This document shows positions 5,091-63,372 of a DNA stretch of 64,000 nucleotides, piece after piece. The DNA is taken from NCBI GenBank assembly GCA_001657395.1, contig LYSY01000002.1, positions 558,001 through 622,000 on the forward strand, read 5' to 3'. This DNA is from Rhodospirillales bacterium BBD 1991-14 (GTDB lineage: Bacteria > Pseudomonadota > Alphaproteobacteria > Kiloniellales > Kiloniellaceae). Position numbers and translations under genes: made by a program. The notes under the pieces are model-generated. The model searched no databases. It was not told the origin of the DNA and saw nothing but the letters and a program-made list of their open reading frames with translations. The stretch's first letter is position 1. Every line of letters begins with the position of its first letter.

Positions 5091-5186
5091 CGCTCCGCCA
5101 CGCGGCTCCCTACATTGGCGCTCAAGGCAATAGCGAGTCCGGGGCTTCCCGAAGCCCCGCCGCCCCACCGCTATAGGGATGTTTCC

Positions 5187-5540
5187 ATGACAACGACGAC
5201 TGCGACAACGACCTCCGCCTCCGCGACGACGGCGACCAACGACGGGACCTTCGAGCAGGATGTTCTTCAGGCTGAAGGCCCGGTTCTGGTCGACTTCTGG
5301 GCCGAATGGTGCGGCCCCTGCAAGATGATCGCACCGGCCCTGGAGGAGATCGCCAGCGAGATGGATGGCCGTATCACCGTCGCCAAGCTGAACATCGACG
5401 ACAACCCCCATACGCCGCAGAAGTACGGCGTGCGGGGTATTCCAACCCTGATGCTGTTCAAGGATGGGCAGGTCGCCGCGACCAAGGTTGGCGCGGTCGG
5501 CAAGACCCAGTTGCTGGAATGGGTTGAATCCGTGGTGTGA
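5187..5540 (+). CDS. trxA: Thioredoxin
   Basis: A 117-residue thioredoxin, the cytoplasmic dithiol-disulfide reductant. The redox motif WCGPCK is at residues 41-46, preceded by VLVDFWAE, and the cis-proline segment GIPTLMLF follows. The N-terminus carries a Thr/Ala/Ser-rich extension of about 17 residues before the fold begins (TFEQDV), longer than in E. coli TrxA. ATG 5187 is preferred; an upstream in-frame start at 5115 would add a proline-rich leader not seen in the family. It lies 96 bp after addA and ends at a strong intrinsic terminator. Confidence 0.95.
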
Positions 5541-23549: not shown

Positions 23550-23650
23550 GTCTCGGATCCTTAATGCGCTAAATCAATCAATGGATAAATCTGCGAAGTC
23601 TTATTCTATCAAAAGAGGAGGACGGCAAGAGAAAGACCGGCTCTGACAGG

Positions 23651-23678
23651 TCTTGGCACCCGAGTCTTGGCACCCGAG
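23651..23678. repeat. 14-bp exact tandem duplication
   Basis: TCTTGGCACCCGAG occurs twice head to tail (23651-23664, 23665-23678) in the gap between array members 1 and 2. No ORF or known element explains it. Confidence 0.9.
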
Positions 23679-23787
23679 CGGGCGCCCGATCACACGTCCG
23701 GCGCGCTCATCGCGGTGTCATGCCGGGTTCACGCGTTCCGGGCCATCATCACCCACGGCGATGTGTCGGGGCGGAGATGGCGACGGT

Positions 23788-24735
23788 TCAGGACGTCTCG
23801 TCGTTTTCCCTGCCGGCGGGGGGCTGGGTGCTTGGCAGGTTGCCGGTCGTGCCGGGCACCCAGCCGGTGCAGGTGCGGAAGGCAAAGCTGAGCAGGGTGA
23901 AGACCACGGCGAAGGCGAGGAAGTTGGCGACCGCCTGGATCAGGTTGAACACGATGACACCCAGGATCGAGGGCGGCTCGCTCGGGCTTACGGCAGCCGC
24001 CGGCCCTTCCGCAGGCATCTCCTCCCCCGGCATCGGCACCGTCGGAACCAGGTCCGCCATGGACAGCCCGAAGAACAGCTGCAGGAGAACGAGGGAGATG
24101 GCGATCTGCGCGACGGTGAGCGGCAGCGCGACCGCGGCGAGGGCGGCGGTCAGGCGCAGCCCCTGGCCGGCAGTGTGCTGCCAGGAGAGGCCGAGCCCGT
24201 AGGTCTCCCCGGCCGCCGCGGCCGGCAGAACGAAGCCCAGGCGCGCCAGGGCGTAGATCATGCCGGCAAACATCACCAGCAATACCAGGATCACGCCCGG
24301 CCCAACCTGTCCCGCGGGTCCCATCAGGCCGAAGATCGCGGCAAGCACGGAGCCGATGAACGTCAGCGGAACCGCCATCAGCATCATGGTGAGCGCAAGG
24401 AAGGCACTGAAGCCGAAAAAGCGCCAATGGACCTCGCCCCAGGAGAGACTCTTGGCCGGCAGGGCCGCGGGACCGAAGAGGATAATCCGGCACCAGTTCA
24501 CCCCGAAGTGACAGGTGGCGGCGAAGCTCACCAGGATCAGGAAGAAACTGACGCCACCGCCCGCAGGCAGAACCAGCGAAATGATCCAGGCTCCGATCAA
24601 CAGAGCCACGGCACCCTTGGCGGCTTGCGCGACCAGGGCCAGACGGCCGAAGACGGCGGCGAAACTGGCCATGACCGTGGCCGCGATGGGAACCTCGGCG
24701 ACCGGTCCGGACGGGGGGGATTGCTGTGCCGCCAT
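23788..24735 (-). CDS. Polytopic membrane protein, array member 1
   Basis: A 315-residue membrane protein of unknown function, first in the array. Family blocks: W81-x-R83 (VNWCRIILFG), W104 and FGF 107-109, R165-L166...P171-A172 in RLGFVLPAAAAGE, S184-W185 (LSWQHTAGQG), and GW(291-292). Its C-terminus differs from the others: LERFE is replaced by a polar tail, NLPSTQPPAGRENDETS. A proline/glutamate-rich loop lies near residues 228-255. It starts 3 bp after the pyrF stop, so it is co-transcribed with pyrF. Confidence 0.75.
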   Translation of the reverse strand: MAAQQSPPSGPVAEVPIAATVMASFAAVFGRLALVAQAAKGAVALLIGAWIISLVLPAGGGVSFFLILVSFAATCHFGVNWCRIILFGPAALPAKSLSWGEVHWRFFGFSAFLALTMMLMAVPLTFIGSVLAAIFGLMGPAGQVGPGVILVLLVMFAGMIYALARLGFVLPAAAAGETYGLGLSWQHTAGQGLRLTAALAAVALPLTVAQIAISLVLLQLFFGLSMADLVPTVPMPGEEMPAEGPAAAVSPSEPPSILGVIVFNLIQAVANFLAFAVVFTLLSFAFRTCTGWVPGTTGNLPSTQPPAGRENDETS

Positions 24736-24738
24736 GCG

Positions 24739-25542
24739 CTACCCGGCCTGCGCCTTTTCGGAACGGCCGGCCGTGTCGGCGGCGCTTCGGCTGCCTTGTC
24801 CGGCGTCTGCGGCCACCTCTTCGACAATGCGCTGGGCCGCGGCGCGCGGGTCGCCGGCGGCATTGATCGGACGGCCGATGACGATGTGGTCGGCGCCGGC
24901 GGCGATGGCCTGCGCAGGCGTCATGACCCGCTTCTGGTCGCCGCTGGCCGCCCAGCTCGGCCTGATGCCGGGGACGACCAGCAGAAAGCCCGGCCCGCAG
25001 GCTTCGCGCAGCGCCACAATCTCCTGCGGTGCACACACCACGCCGTCCAGGCCGCTGTCCTGTGTAAGGCGGGCCAGCCGCAGCACCTGGTCCGCGGCGG
25101 GGCCGCGCTGCCCGACCTCCTCCAGGTCGGCGGCGTCGAGGCTGGTGAGCACCGTGACGCCGATCACCTTCGGCCGCTCGACGCCCAGGTCCTCGGCGGT
25201 CTCCCGCGCGGCCTGTGCGGCGGCCTGCATCATGGCCCGCCCGCCGGAGGCATGGACGTTCAGGATGGCCGGGCGCAGGTGCACTGCGGCCCGGACCGCG
25301 CCGGCGACGGTGTTCGGGATGTCGTGGAACTTCAGATCCAGGAACAGCGGTGCCCCGCCGGCAGCCAGGCGGACCCCGTCGGGTCCCTGGGCGGTGAACA
25401 GCTCCTTGCCGATCTTGACTCCGCCGACGACGCCCAGCACGGCCTTGGACAGCGCCGCCGCGCGTTCGATGTCGGGTGTGTCCAGAGCGGCAAAGATACG
25501 ATCCTGCGGGGCGATCGTGCCGTCTTGTGATGGTGTGGTCAT
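24739..25542 (-). CDS. pyrF: Orotidine 5'-phosphate decarboxylase
   Basis: A 267-residue TIM barrel catalysing the last step of UMP synthesis. The catalytic D-K-x-x-D is D69, K71 and D74 in LFLDLKFHDIPNT, followed by VHASGG and the phosphate-binding LLVVPGIRP and IVIGRPI segments. A C-terminal extension of about 25 residues (DAGQGSRSAADTAGRSEKAQAG) is polar and not part of the core. It leads directly into the membrane-protein array. Confidence 0.95.
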   Translation of the reverse strand: MTTPSQDGTIAPQDRIFAALDTPDIERAAALSKAVLGVVGGVKIGKELFTAQGPDGVRLAAGGAPLFLDLKFHDIPNTVAGAVRAAVHLRPAILNVHASGGRAMMQAAAQAARETAEDLGVERPKVIGVTVLTSLDAADLEEVGQRGPAADQVLRLARLTQDSGLDGVVCAPQEIVALREACGPGFLLVVPGIRPSWAASGDQKRVMTPAQAIAAGADHIVIGRPINAAGDPRAAAQRIVEEVAADAGQGSRSAADTAGRSEKAQAG

Positions 25543-25621: not shown

Positions 25622-26740
25622 TCAGTCCTCTTCAAGCCGGCCGCCGCGCCCCTCGGCCCAGTCGCGGAAAGCCTCGAAAGGGCGCTCGCCGGTCGCGGTC
25701 TTCGCCAGTTCCTCGCCCATGACAGCGCCGAACTTGAACATATGGCCGCTGCAGCCGCCGATCACCGTGACCCCGCCGTTGCGTTCGGCAACGAAGCGCT
25801 CGTCGGGGGAGACGCCGTAGGGACAGACGCGCCCGCGCAGGATCGTGTAGTCGTCGAAATCCCTCAGCACATCGCGAAAGGCGGCGGCGACCGCGGCTGC
25901 TTCGTCCTTGCCCAGCGACTCCAGACTGTCCGGGTCGCCCGGCCGGCGGTGAGTGCCGCTGCCGAACTTCAGCTCGCTTCCCTCCGCCGGCGGCGCGGCG
26001 TAGATGTCGGCGGCATTGGAAAGATGAACCATCGCCGGGGCGGCGGCCCAGGCCTCCGCATGGTGTTCCGGCGGCTCCAGATAGGCGACGACCTGGCGGT
26101 GCGGCACGGCGCGGCGGGCCAGCTCCGGGAACAGCTTGGCGGTCCAGGCGCCGGCGGCGACGACGATGGCTTCGGCGCTTTCGCGGCTGCCGTCGTCCAG
26201 GCTCACGCAGCCGGCGGCGGGGTCGACGCTGACGATCCGGGTCTCTTCGCGCAGGCGAACGCCCCGCTGGCGCAGATAGCGGATCAGGGACTCGACGATA
26301 CGGTCCGCGAACAGCAGGCCGCCGCGGCGGTTGAACAGGCCCCAGGCCTCCTGCGGTACGGTCAGGAAGGGATAGCGCGCATGGATGTCGCCGGCATCGA
26401 AGGTTTCATAGTCGAGCCCCAGCGCATCGAGGGTGACGCGGGAGAGATCGGTCCAGTCGTTTTCCTCCGTTGAGACCGCAAGGCTGCCGATCTCTGCATA
26501 GGGGGTCTCGCCGAGGTCGTCCCACAGGCGGTCCCAGGCCGCCAGGGCGTCGATCACCATGGCGCAATACCCCCGCTGATCGGCATAGGGCAGGCGGATC
26601 AGACGGTGCTGGTCGTAGGAGGCGCCGCCCTCGTGCGGCAGGGGTCCCTGCTCGAAGAGCACGGGGTCATGGCCCTGGCGCACGAGAGCCCAGGCCGTTG
26701 CCAGGCCGACGATGCCGCCGCCGACGACCAGTACTTTCAT
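25622..26740 (-). CDS. Monomeric sarcosine oxidase/N-methyltryptophan oxidase-like FAD enzyme
   Basis: A 372-residue FAD-dependent amine oxidoreductase of the MSOX/MTOX group. The dinucleotide-binding GGGIVGLATA is at residues 7-16, FEQGPLPHEGGASYDQHRLIR forms the ribose/flavin region, and C306 in GRVCPYGVSPDERF aligns with the cysteine that carries covalent FAD. The flavin-binding CSGHMFKFGAVMGEELA follows. It probably oxidises an N-methylated or secondary amino acid to imine and H2O2. The start is at the end of a remarkable array of repeated start sites (26733-26802). The next gene upstream on the strand is a cyclodeaminase-like enzyme. Confidence 0.88.
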   Translation of the reverse strand: MKVLVVGGGIVGLATAWALVRQGHDPVLFEQGPLPHEGGASYDQHRLIRLPYADQRGYCAMVIDALAAWDRLWDDLGETPYAEIGSLAVSTEENDWTDLSRVTLDALGLDYETFDAGDIHARYPFLTVPQEAWGLFNRRGGLLFADRIVESLIRYLRQRGVRLREETRIVSVDPAAGCVSLDDGSRESAEAIVVAAGAWTAKLFPELARRAVPHRQVVAYLEPPEHHAEAWAAAPAMVHLSNAADIYAAPPAEGSELKFGSGTHRRPGDPDSLESLGKDEAAAVAAAFRDVLRDFDDYTILRGRVCPYGVSPDERFVAERNGGVTVIGGCSGHMFKFGAVMGEELAKTATGERPFEAFRDWAEGRGGRLEED

Positions 26741-26802
26741 GGCAGCACCTTCATAGCAGTACCTTCATGGCAACATCTTCATGGTATGGCCTTCATGGTA
26801 TC
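26733..26802 (-). repeat. Five 14-bp repeats forming four chained 5-codon upstream ORFs
   Basis: On the minus strand ATG occurs at exactly 14-nt intervals: first bases at 26796, 26782, 26768, 26754 and 26740, the last being the oxidase start. The first four each open a frame of five codons (MKAIP, MKMLP, MKVLL, MKVLP) then TGA, and every TGA overlaps the next ATG as ATGA. Copies carry AAGG or a purine-rich equivalent 7 nt before the next ATG, and the first uORF has AAAGG 7 nt upstream. The repeated peptide MKVL is the oxidase's own N-terminus (MKVLVVGGG), so the array looks like tandem duplication of the gene's start region. Confidence 0.85.
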
Positions 26803-26871
26803 GCCTTTAGGGGCTCCGCCTTCGCGTGACCGGTCCCCCTCCCTGGAGCATGCCTGCCCCGGGGGTGGCCC

Positions 26872-26919
26872 GGCCAGCAGGAATTCCGGCCAGCGGGAAA
26901 TGCGGCCAGCGGGAAATGC
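26872..26919. repeat. 16-bp tandem repeat, three copies
   Basis: Units at 26872-26887 (GGCCAGCAGGAATTCC), 26888-26903 and 26904-26919 (both GGCCAGCGGGAAATGC). The array ends two bases before the stop codon complement of the cyclodeaminase gene, so it is that gene's immediate 3' flank. Confidence 0.88.
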
Positions 26920-26921
26920 GA

Positions 26922-27857
26922 TCAGCCCCGCTCGTGCACCAACTGGGCGGCCGCCAGGTCTTCGATCGCGGTACCGACCGACTTGAAAGCCGTGATCTGA
27001 TCGTAGAAGCGCCGGCCGCTGCGCTCGCCGCGGGTCAGTTCGAACAGATCGCCGGCGATGTCCTCTTCGCTCAGCGTTCCCGCCTCTATGGCGAGCAGGA
27101 TGTCCCCGGCTTCGCTGAGCGCCCCGGCGCGGGTGTCGACGAAGACCCTTGCCCGTTCCATGACCCGATCATCGCTCTCGCGCATGTCCGGGCGGAAGGC
27201 GCCGACCAGATCCAGGTGCTGGCCGGGCTGCAGCCAGTCGCCGTGGATCAGCGGGTCGCGGCTCAAGGTGGCGCAGGAGATCACGTGGGCACCGCGGGCC
27301 GCCGCTTCCAGATCGTCGGTCGCCTCCACCCGGAAATCCCGGCGGTTGAGCCGCCGGGCCAGCTTCTCGGCCTTGTCCGGATTGCGCCCCCAGATCAGCA
27401 CGTTGCAGATCGGCCGCACAGCGGCGTGGGCCATGATCAACTGCGGCGCCATGGCGCCGGTGCCCACCATCAGGAGCCGTTCGCTGTCCGGCCGCGAGAG
27501 GTATTTCGCCGCCAGAGCCGATGCGGCGGCGGTTCGCTTGACCGTCAGCGTCGGACCGTCGACCAGCGCCAGCGGCGAGCCGGTCTTGCCGTCCAGCAGG
27601 ACATAGATGCCCATGACCGCCGGCAGGCTGCGGGCGCCGTTGTCGGGAAAGATGGTGACCATCTTGACGCCGACGTGGCGGTCCACCTGCCAGGCGGGCA
27701 TCAGCAGCAGCGTGCCGGTGCTGGCGCCGGTGACCTCGACGTCGTGGTGATGGCGGACCGGGACCTTGATGTCGCGCCGGAAGGCCTGTCGGAGTCGCTC
27801 GATCAGGCTCGGATAGTCCAGGGCCGCTTCCACCTCCGCCGAGGAGATGATCCGCAT
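26922..27857 (-). CDS. Ornithine cyclodeaminase/mu-crystallin family protein
   Basis: A 311-residue NAD(P)-dependent protein of the ornithine cyclodeaminase/alanine dehydrogenase/ketimine reductase family. Signatures: GVKMVTIFPDN with K65, VDGPTLTVKRTAAASALAAKYL, the nucleotide-binding VGTGAMAPQL at 131-140, and VGAFRPDMRE with the catalytic aspartate near 218. ATG 27857 shares a base with the upstream lapA stop (TAATG). Together with the downstream amine oxidase it suggests amino-acid or imino-acid metabolism; the exact substrate is not readable. Confidence 0.87.
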   Translation of the reverse strand: MRIISSAEVEAALDYPSLIERLRQAFRRDIKVPVRHHHDVEVTGASTGTLLLMPAWQVDRHVGVKMVTIFPDNGARSLPAVMGIYVLLDGKTGSPLALVDGPTLTVKRTAAASALAAKYLSRPDSERLLMVGTGAMAPQLIMAHAAVRPICNVLIWGRNPDKAEKLARRLNRRDFRVEATDDLEAAARGAHVISCATLSRDPLIHGDWLQPGQHLDLVGAFRPDMRESDDRVMERARVFVDTRAGALSEAGDILLAIEAGTLSEEDIAGDLFELTRGERSGRRFYDQITAFKSVGTAIEDLAAAQLVHERG

Positions 27858-31026: not shown

Positions 31027-31692
31027 CTAGGTGGCGGGGCCGGGCAGCTTCAGACGCTTTTCGATCTCGGCCATCGCGGCTGCGAAGGCCTGGTCGGCAT
31101 CCATCTCGCTGGTATCGAGCCGCAAGGCATCTGCCGCGGCCTTTAACGGGGCGGTCGCCCGCCCGCTGTCGCGCGCGTCCCGTTCGCGCAAGTCCTGCAA
31201 AACGCGGGCGTATATACTCTTCTCCCCGCGTTCAAGCAACTCTTTATGGCGCCGCTGGGCGCGGGCCTCCATGGAGGCTGTTAGGAACAATTTCACATCC
31301 GCATCGGGACAGACCACCGTCCCGATGTCGCGACCGTCCAGGACCGCCCCGCCCCGCGGCCCTTCGGGGCCCGCCGGCGGCTCTGCCGCAAAGCGGTGCT
31401 GGAAGGCCAACAGGGCCTCGCGCACGGCCTGATTGGCGGCAACCTTGGAGGCCGCCTGCCCGACCGCCTCGCGGCGCAGATCGCCGCGCTCCAGGTCCGC
31501 CGGGGTCAGCGCGACCGCCGCGGCGACCGCCGCGTCATGGTTCTCCGGGTCGTCGCCGGCGGCCAGCACCTTGGCGGCCACCGCGCGGTAGATGGAGCCG
31601 GTGTCCAGGTAAGCGAAGCTGAGGGCCGCGGCCAGCCGCCGCGCCAGGGTGCCCTTGCCGGCAGCCACCGGTCCGTCGACAGCGATGATCAT
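31027..31692 (-). CDS. cmk: Cytidylate kinase
   Basis: A 221-residue kinase phosphorylating CMP and dCMP. The P-loop GPVAAGKGT is at residues 7-15, followed by YLDTGSIYRAVA, the GRDIGTVVCPDADVKLFLTAS block, and R/D motifs in RRHKELLERG and ERDARDSGRATAPL. Position aroA-cmk-rpsA-ihfB is the conserved arrangement. The gap to rpsA is 216 bp. Confidence 0.95.
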   Translation of the reverse strand: MIIAVDGPVAAGKGTLARRLAAALSFAYLDTGSIYRAVAAKVLAAGDDPENHDAAVAAAVALTPADLERGDLRREAVGQAASKVAANQAVREALLAFQHRFAAEPPAGPEGPRGGAVLDGRDIGTVVCPDADVKLFLTASMEARAQRRHKELLERGEKSIYARVLQDLRERDARDSGRATAPLKAAADALRLDTSEMDADQAFAAAMAEIEKRLKLPGPAT

Positions 31693-31761
31693 AGGACGGG
31701 GGTCATTGCCCGCTGTATCGCGCGGCGACTGCAGCCTGCGCGGTGCTCTTGTGGACCCGGT

Positions 31762-62924: not shown

Positions 62925-63372
62925 ATCTTCACTTCTTGACGCCAACGTTCAGCCGCGGGTTTCCGGCATCGGGGCGCCCGCCGGGCCCCGGATCAAATCG
63001 GTCTGTGCAACCAGGCCTGCCAACTGCGGATCCGCCACGGCCTTCGCCGCAGGCCGCCTGCCGATCCTTACGATGCGGGGCTGCACCCTATCCCCTCTCT
63101 GCTCCCGACAGAGCGACCCTGCCTGGTTGCCGGCCCTCCGGTCGGGGCTCCAGGCTCGAGGATGGCTGCTGCCGATTCGCCTGAATCGAAGGGATAGCAC
63201 TCCTTTCCGGCTTCTACCAGACCTGCCGGACGCCCGGATCGTCCCAGGATCTTCCCCTGATGTTCCCCGGCCCCGGGTTCGAAGACCCCGTCGAGAGGCG
63301 GCCAACACTCTGCGGCCGACACTCTGCAACTGACACTCTGCGGCCGGCTTGGCGCACCTGTTCGGTTGCCGG
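62925..63372. other. Noncoding gap between kdsD and rnd
   Basis: 448 bp with no credible gene; frames read here are short or proline/arginine-rich. It contains a three-copy 14-bp repeat (63299-63340). The kdsD promoter should be in the left part but I cannot point to it. Confidence 0.55.
63299..63340. repeat. 14-bp tandem repeat, three copies
   Basis: CGGCCAACACTCTG (63299-63312), CGGCCGACACTCTG (63313-63326) and CAACTGACACTCTG (63327-63340), followed by a partial CGGCCG. It lies 33 bp from the rnd stop. Confidence 0.85.

Follow-up and report, generated by a model that had tools for sequence, protein, structure and literature searches.

The start of a FAD-dependent oxidoreductase gene in Rhodospirillales bacterium BBD 1991-14 (GCA_001657395.1) is preceded by four five-codon ORFs in tandem, each closing on the next start, and comparable chains occur at further gene starts and gene junctions in this genome and its relatives. 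We lean towards reading them as tandem duplications of ATGA starts or gene junctions, kept mainly in the phase that would permit a ribosome to step along them by termination-reinitiation. That the duplications are kept mainly in the relay phase is well supported by the sequence comparisons below, with modest phase controls, and a relay function of the micro-ORF chains is likely.

The window, i.e. the whole stretch of 64,000 nt analyzed (contig LYSY01000002.1, positions 558,001 to 622,000 of the forward strand), carries on its minus strand ATGs at 26796, 26782, 26768, 26754, and 26740, in exact 14-nt steps by inspection of the sequence. The first four open 18-nt ORFs, each with a TGA sharing 4 nt (ATGA) with the following ATG, and the fifth (26740) is the start of a 372-aa ORF (25622-26740) matching PF01266 DAO (Pfam, E 3e-49). 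An earlier sequence-only reading of the window had described this arrangement of five ATGs, four chained micro-ORFs, and the oxidase start, and all of it is borne out. The features of the region are:

26922..27857, minus strand: ornithine cyclodeaminase/mu-crystallin family gene (PF02423, Pfam), upstream and co-directed
26871..26926, minus strand: tandem repeat of 16 bp lacking an ATG, located in the gap that also holds the oxidase chain; present once in the sister species (G001)
26804..26808, minus strand: SD-like AAAGG, 7 nt 5' of the first ATG of the chain, with a putative SD function
26779..26796, minus strand: micro-ORF 1, ATGAAGGCCATACCATGA, MKAIP and stop
26765..26782, minus strand: micro-ORF 2, ATGAAGATGTTGCCATGA, MKMLP and stop
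26751..26768, minus strand: micro-ORF 3, ATGAAGGTACTGCTATGA, MKVLL and stop
26737..26754, minus strand: micro-ORF 4, ATGAAGGTGCTGCCATGA, MKVLP and stop, terminating on the oxidase ATG
25622..26740, minus strand: FAD-dependent oxidoreductase gene (PF01266 DAO, Pfam), 372 aa, with an ATGA start compared with relatives

Tandem Repeats Finder detects the oxidase array (period 14, 3.5 copies, score 70). The stretch preceding the first ATG (AAAGGCGATACC) matches the AAGG-N7 of micro-ORFs 1, 3, and 4, micro-ORF 2 having AAGA, so the repeat begins one unit earlier and its unit comprises an SD-like core, a 7-nt spacer, and ATG. The repeated unit is better read as a complete copied start site, AAGG-N7-ATG. 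The AAGG inside micro-ORF 4, the predicted SD of the oxidase, lies 7 nt ahead of its ATG. With equal base use, five ATGA at a fixed spacing (20 fixed bases) are expected about 1e-7 times in 64 kb on both strands, and the array is real and beyond chance. The reading-frame chain follows automatically when an ATGA start is copied with a 3n+2 period, and therefore does not count as separate evidence for design.

Seven other members of the genus were searched and support the oxidase start at 26740: their proteins begin with MKVL, MKVI, MRVL, or MKII at the equivalent position. The micro-peptides had been described as MKVLL/MKVLP copies of the enzyme's own N-terminus, which is correct for micro-ORFs 3 and 4 and not for the first two (MKAIP and MKMLP). 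The likeness to the N-terminus is present, but as a by-product of the copying of the start region, the peptides of other loci being unrelated; no shared peptide was found between loci among the compared chains. A function of the micro-peptides was rejected as the main reading, since they differ between loci and drift within an array.

Elsewhere in the window, a lone micro-ORF at 31689-31706 on the minus strand (ATGACCCCCGTCCTATGA, MTPVL and stop) terminates on the ATG of an ORF at 31692 (MIIAVDGPVAAGKGT...), the spacing being again 14; we take this ORF to be cytidylate-kinase-like. At 5179-5190 on the plus strand, the micro-ORF ATGTTTCCATGA (MFP and stop) closes on the ATG of an ORF called at 5187, in an 8-nt step. 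Further 14-bp tandem repeats, with a unit without ATGA, are found at 63298-63346 and 23650-23678.

In total, 41 genomes were investigated: the bacterium's own (G000) and those of relatives from its genus (7), family (15), and order (18). Three ATGAs at a spacing of 14 occur in G000 in four places besides the oxidase array, three of them preceding ORFs and one (L001) not:

L002: 14-nt chain before an acyltransferase gene; the DUF218 gene upstream ends on the first ATGA
L003: 14-nt chain before a DUF188 gene; the upstream frame has no Pfam hit
L004: 14-nt chain before an ORF without Pfam hit, kept in G001; the CxxCxxCC gene upstream ends on the first ATGA

The same genome also has 17-nt chains before BatA-, M81-, and BPD-type genes, and the units of its other chains are unrelated to those of the oxidase array. 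The view of the oxidase array as a singleton was rejected in light of the further chains in this genome and its relatives. By eye, a TGATG-type chain of period 14 is observed in G000 at about 8394-8440 of L083 (G000:C15:328394, minus strand), with MPND, MPND, and MLND, each followed by a stop, before MLKGEARR; it is the 1-nt-overlap version of the ATGA chain.

The 3-fold ATGA-N10 pattern (period 14) has matches in 26 of the 41 genomes, 69 against 13 for the reversed-pattern control; these matches overlap within arrays and merge into 57 places, and a dispersed sequence in G002 accounts for five of the 69. This is a near-identical 32-nt sequence with three ATGAs in each copy (C2:19792, C4:118608, C4:155993, C13:83851, and C25:16770), which may be part of a dispersed or mobile element. 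For ATGC at spacing 14 there were 21 matches against 8 for the reversed control in the 41 genomes. Other ATGA periods gave 25 against 4 (period 11), 23 against 3 (13), 37 against 3 (17), and 59 against 20 (16), where 32 of the 59 come from one 8-bp repeat, only one of whose rows entered the count of places. Period 15 is the most widespread among the matches listed, being found in at least 39 of the 41 genomes, as expected from in-frame repeats inside proteins. Among these matches there is an array with eight ATGAs (L210, G010:C4:254651-254759, ATGACTCTGCCCTTA), in-frame if at a start. After merging, tandem places for periods 11, 13, 14, 16, and 17 number 3, 9, 38, 18, and 19, respectively, where a place counts as tandem only if its free positions are at least 60% alike, three intact ATGAs were demanded in every class, and some places are orthologues in G000 and G001.

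Flanks were obtained for 86 of the 87. Among the ORFs opening at the last ATG, 46 have at least 60 aa and 45 of these were searched with Pfam, shorter ORFs being taken as negative. Hits were found for 19 of 38 places of period 14, 11 of 19 of period 17, 5 of 18 of period 16 (one with a doubtful start), 1 of 9 of period 13, and none of 3 of period 11. Periods 14 and 17 together thus differ from 13 and 16 (30/57 vs 6/27, Fisher p 0.010), a contrast softened because, with a 3n+1 period as well, a set of three copies ends in phase if reading begins at the first ATG. Neighboring units include at least one identical pair in 9 of 57 places of periods 14 and 17 and in 15 of 27 of periods 13 and 16 (p 0.0005), which would be expected if in-phase arrays last longer.

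Upstream frames of at least 60 codons were scanned with Pfam in 25 of 41 cases, with 16 hits. Eleven 14- or 17-bp arrays bridge two Pfam-hit genes, the upstream frame terminating on the first ATGA:

Bridged pairs: DUF218/acyltransferase, DctP/ABC, PNPOx/cation efflux, FixG/FixH, NiFe hydrogenase small/large, DctQ/DctM
Bridged pairs, continued: DUF58/BatA, LysR/M81, BPD/BPD, BPD/OppC-type, SDR/DAO

The NiFe hydrogenase small/large, DctQ/DctM, and FixG/FixH pairs are of a kind that is often coupled. There are exceptions: a 13-bp array (L151) bridges deformylase and COQ9 genes, both with Pfam hits, and two 14-bp arrays (L045 and L171) come after a Pfam gene yet open no gene.

A 5-fold ATGA-N10 scan of public genomes found at least 113 stretches, of which the 80 listed (L227-L306) were examined. 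Among the matches listed, 73 of 87 five-fold arrays have a unit with 7-bp self-similarity, mainly in records titled cyanobacteria or Bacteroidota; a few of these period-7 arrays also precede long ORFs (L259, L263, and L266). A contig titled Actinomycetota (L257, 3333-3434) has eight ATGAs and seven micro-ORFs between histidine kinase and FGGY kinase genes (Pfam), and in L287 the array stands before an ABC1-domain gene, as confirmed by Pfam. A phylum sample of 200 genomes yielded the 4-fold pattern in 13, roughly half of which have period-7 repeats by eye.

The phase of upstream ATGs was analyzed with gene starts in G000 from a simple in-house caller, which made at least one wrong-strand call (window 23761-25530) and would swallow upstream ATGs lying in frame; phases 2 and 1 are therefore the pair that can be compared fairly. 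In 2.4 Mb of G000 there are 2052 usable genes, 647 of them with an ATGA start; the nearest upstream ATGA within 5-26 nt of these starts is in phases 0/1/2 in 6/6/26 cases, 14 being the commonest distance (7). After removal of -4 overlaps and of frames open for at least 40 codons, 329 genes gave 6/1/15 for the nearest upstream ATGA and 14/16/43 for any upstream ATG. Within 1.6 Mb of G000, start regions that have a single similar copy upstream carry it in phases 0/1/2 in 6/1/7 cases. ATGC, ATGG, and ATGT starts serve as a contrast, as no stop sits on the start, and their upstream ATGs have phases of 23/15/30, 31/33/36, and 5/11/10; the difference between ATGA and other starts is modest (p 0.02 to 0.04). 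When all upstream ATGAs within 5-40 nt are considered, and not the nearest alone, the phases are only 10/22/33; intergenic ATGAs not called as starts lean likewise (37/38/54). In coding frames, ATG-A was counted 344 vs 210 times, a bias opposite to the prior expectation. A shuffle test (relay 76 vs 32 expected) was dropped since Met codons near the ends of upstream genes with a -4 overlap had been scored as relays; the 329-gene count, with such genes removed, takes its place.

A phase bias could also arise if 3n+2 duplications at ATGA starts were merely harmless and out-of-frame ones were purged, the micro-ORFs remaining idle and the last ATG alone making the enzyme. We find such a neutral by-product quite possible, although we doubt it. 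It agrees with the automatic origin of the chain from the period, with the confinement of the oxidase array to two of eight species, and with the 16-bp ATG-less repeat in the same gap, which is single in the sister species. Short tandem repeats among 1374 genes are also in line with it, since 26 occur at starts, 39 at ends, and 47 and 29 at two internal control points, those at the control points being mostly multiples of 3. However, for a frame filter to act, the inner ATGs must already be in use; units that have diverged while keeping ATGA are commoner in 3n+2 than in 3n+1 arrays, and the phase bias includes upstream ATGAs of little tandem similarity.

The sister species G001, with 94-97% protein identity to G000 at three loci, has an oxidase chain with spacings of 14, 5, 14, and 14 instead of 14, 14, 14, and 14, and all four of its upstream ATGs still read to a stop on a chain ATGA. 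No chain is present in the oxidase leaders of G002-G005 and G007, and G006 has one 17-nt step (by eye); as seven of eight genus members lack the array or have a different one, the gene does not need it. The chain at L004/L060 consists of 2 micro-ORFs in G000 but of 4 in G001, and that of the M81 locus has spacings of 17, 17, and 17 in G000 and 17, 17, and 14 in G001, G004 having one 8-nt step after the upstream stop. The acyltransferase, BatA, and PBP-like chains have equal unit numbers in G000 and G001, with some first starts being GTGA instead of ATGA. At the acyltransferase junction, a plain ATGA overlap is observed in G002 and G003, the upstream gene of G003 having a Met near its end, and the chain in G000 and G001. 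This interspecies pattern agrees with the expectation for an ATGA start or junction that was duplicated in place. The stepping by termination-reinitiation proposed in the sequence-only reading fits the 3n+2 bias of upstream ATGs and ATGAs at ATGA-start genes, and is further supported by unit number or spacing differing between these two species at 3 of 6 compared loci; the movement of the ribosome itself is a presumption.

The loci that differ (oxidase, L004/L060, and M81) could also be taken as a sign that unit number sets the level of translation, slippage switching it between strains. A precedent is found in the accessible text of PMC2734929, where the expression level of M. tuberculosis fpg is reported to go along with the length of the VNTR located upstream. 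We judge this rheostat unlikely, considering that the acyltransferase, BatA, and PBP-like loci keep their unit number and that the units of the oxidase array are diverged. Diverged repeat units slow slippage. It is highly improbable that the repeat has another role in DNA or RNA, as a set of binding sites for regulators or as a folded leader RNA: regulators can bind to direct repeats, but the RNA fold of 26690-26840 is not unusual (z 0.20), a consensus scan of 26700-27000 gave no match to a sigma-70-like promoter or terminator, and the units vary by locus while ATGA and spacing are kept (in a search that itself demanded ATGA).

We still lean towards duplication followed by retention in the relay phase. 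Ordinary short duplication would copy the start site (SD-like core, spacer, and ATGA) in tandem and, at a 3n+2 spacing, the extra start would open a micro-ORF with its TGA on the next ATG. A ribosome loading on any copy would terminate at the next start, reinitiate, and reach the gene in the right frame. Loading probably takes place at the first ATG (AAAGG-N7) and at the inner AAGG cores, and a free-standing five-codon ORF would have to serve as a step; very short ORFs can lose peptidyl-tRNA. Since the oxidase chain begins 125 nt past the stop of the PF02423 gene, it would have to be loaded anew, and would act as a landing strip and not a bridge. At junction arrays, the relay would carry coupling over at least 28 nt. 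In the E. coli pairs described in the available part of PMC10666635, a 14-nt gap left about 60% of reinitiation in one pair and less than 20% in another, and a 38-nt gap cost 80-100%, so arrays parting genes by at least 28 nt should lose much of their coupling without a relay. According to the same partial source, the last 15 nt of an upstream gene, fused to a long reporter, sufficed for reinitiation; both these and the distance experiments used long fused upstream ORFs, whereas the oxidase array has ORFs of five codons.

If the relay works, a junction could absorb an insertion of at least 14 nt and keep translational coupling, which weakens or fails at distances of at least 14 nt in the tested pairs (PMC10666635, accessible text). 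This would account for the ability of coupled genes to drift apart while staying coupled, and natural substrates would become available for measuring serial termination-reinitiation, with the efficiency per step obtained from 1, 2, 4, or 7 units. The tandem-repeat loci able to vary expression would also gain a simple class of sites. A broader idea, which we consider somewhat unlikely, is that ATGA junctions are duplication-tolerant, a 3n+2 duplication sparing both genes and adding a micro-ORF. Relays would then be constantly made and lost at the operon junctions of these bacteria, and unit number could be a heritable stoichiometry dial for adjacent subunits, as in the hydrogenase, TRAP transporter, Opp-type permease, and FixG/FixH.

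Among known systems, attenuator leader peptides and regulatory uORFs share with the oxidase leader a short ORF ahead of the gene; unlike attenuators, this leader has no terminator- or antiterminator-like hairpin or unusual fold detected by the consensus scan and the fold test. The BCD of synthetic biology is a single short leader ORF carrying the SD of the gene, with its stop overlapping the start of the gene. Micro-ORF 4 resembles it in being a short ORF that contains the SD of the gene (here predicted) and has a stop overlapping the gene start, but a BCD is one designed leader ORF, while the oxidase array is natural and serial. With termination-reinitiation at overlapping gene pairs (ATGA, TGATG), the arrays have the 4-nt stop-start overlap in common. 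Coupling in the accessible portions of PMC6728339 and PMC10666635 involves two full genes, whereas here micro-ORFs of 5-6 codons lie between.

Among the papers listed by full-text literature searches, with subscription journals mostly outside their coverage, none dealt, judging by title or opening of the abstract, with naturally occurring tandem chains of short ORFs linked by ATGA, the mycobacterial repeats excepted. The sequence-only reading knew of no described example, but a parallel exists in the MIRUs of mycobacteria, and the arrangement recurs in the same genome and its relatives. According to the excerpted text of PMC12548453, which reviews translational coupling, start codons are where MIRUs insert, and the ORF within the repeat is coupled at -4 nt; their insertion is held to be tolerable through this -4 coupling (Supply et al. 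1997, as cited in the available parts of PMC12548453 and PMC2734929). They measure 40-100 bp, occupy 41 sites in H37Rv, of which 12 are polymorphic, and are thought to be mobile (PMC2734929, same text). As far as these partial sources describe them, MIRUs are like the oxidase array in having a short ORF within the repeat that overlaps the next start by 4 nt, and like the junction arrays found here in lying between genes. Their copy number varies between isolates; here, the variation in unit number or spacing is between sister species. The unit of 40-100 bp compares with 14 bp in the oxidase array and mostly 14 or 17 bp in the others. Moreover, MIRUs are one dispersed sequence family, whereas the chains of G000 consist of locus-specific, unrelated units, which most likely arose on the spot since they vary from locus to locus and look like the start or junction beside them. 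The arrays share the logic of MIRUs, but not their unit size, dispersed distribution, or presumed mobility, and what is new in comparison with them is the very short and locally made units, the many loci, and the phase bias.
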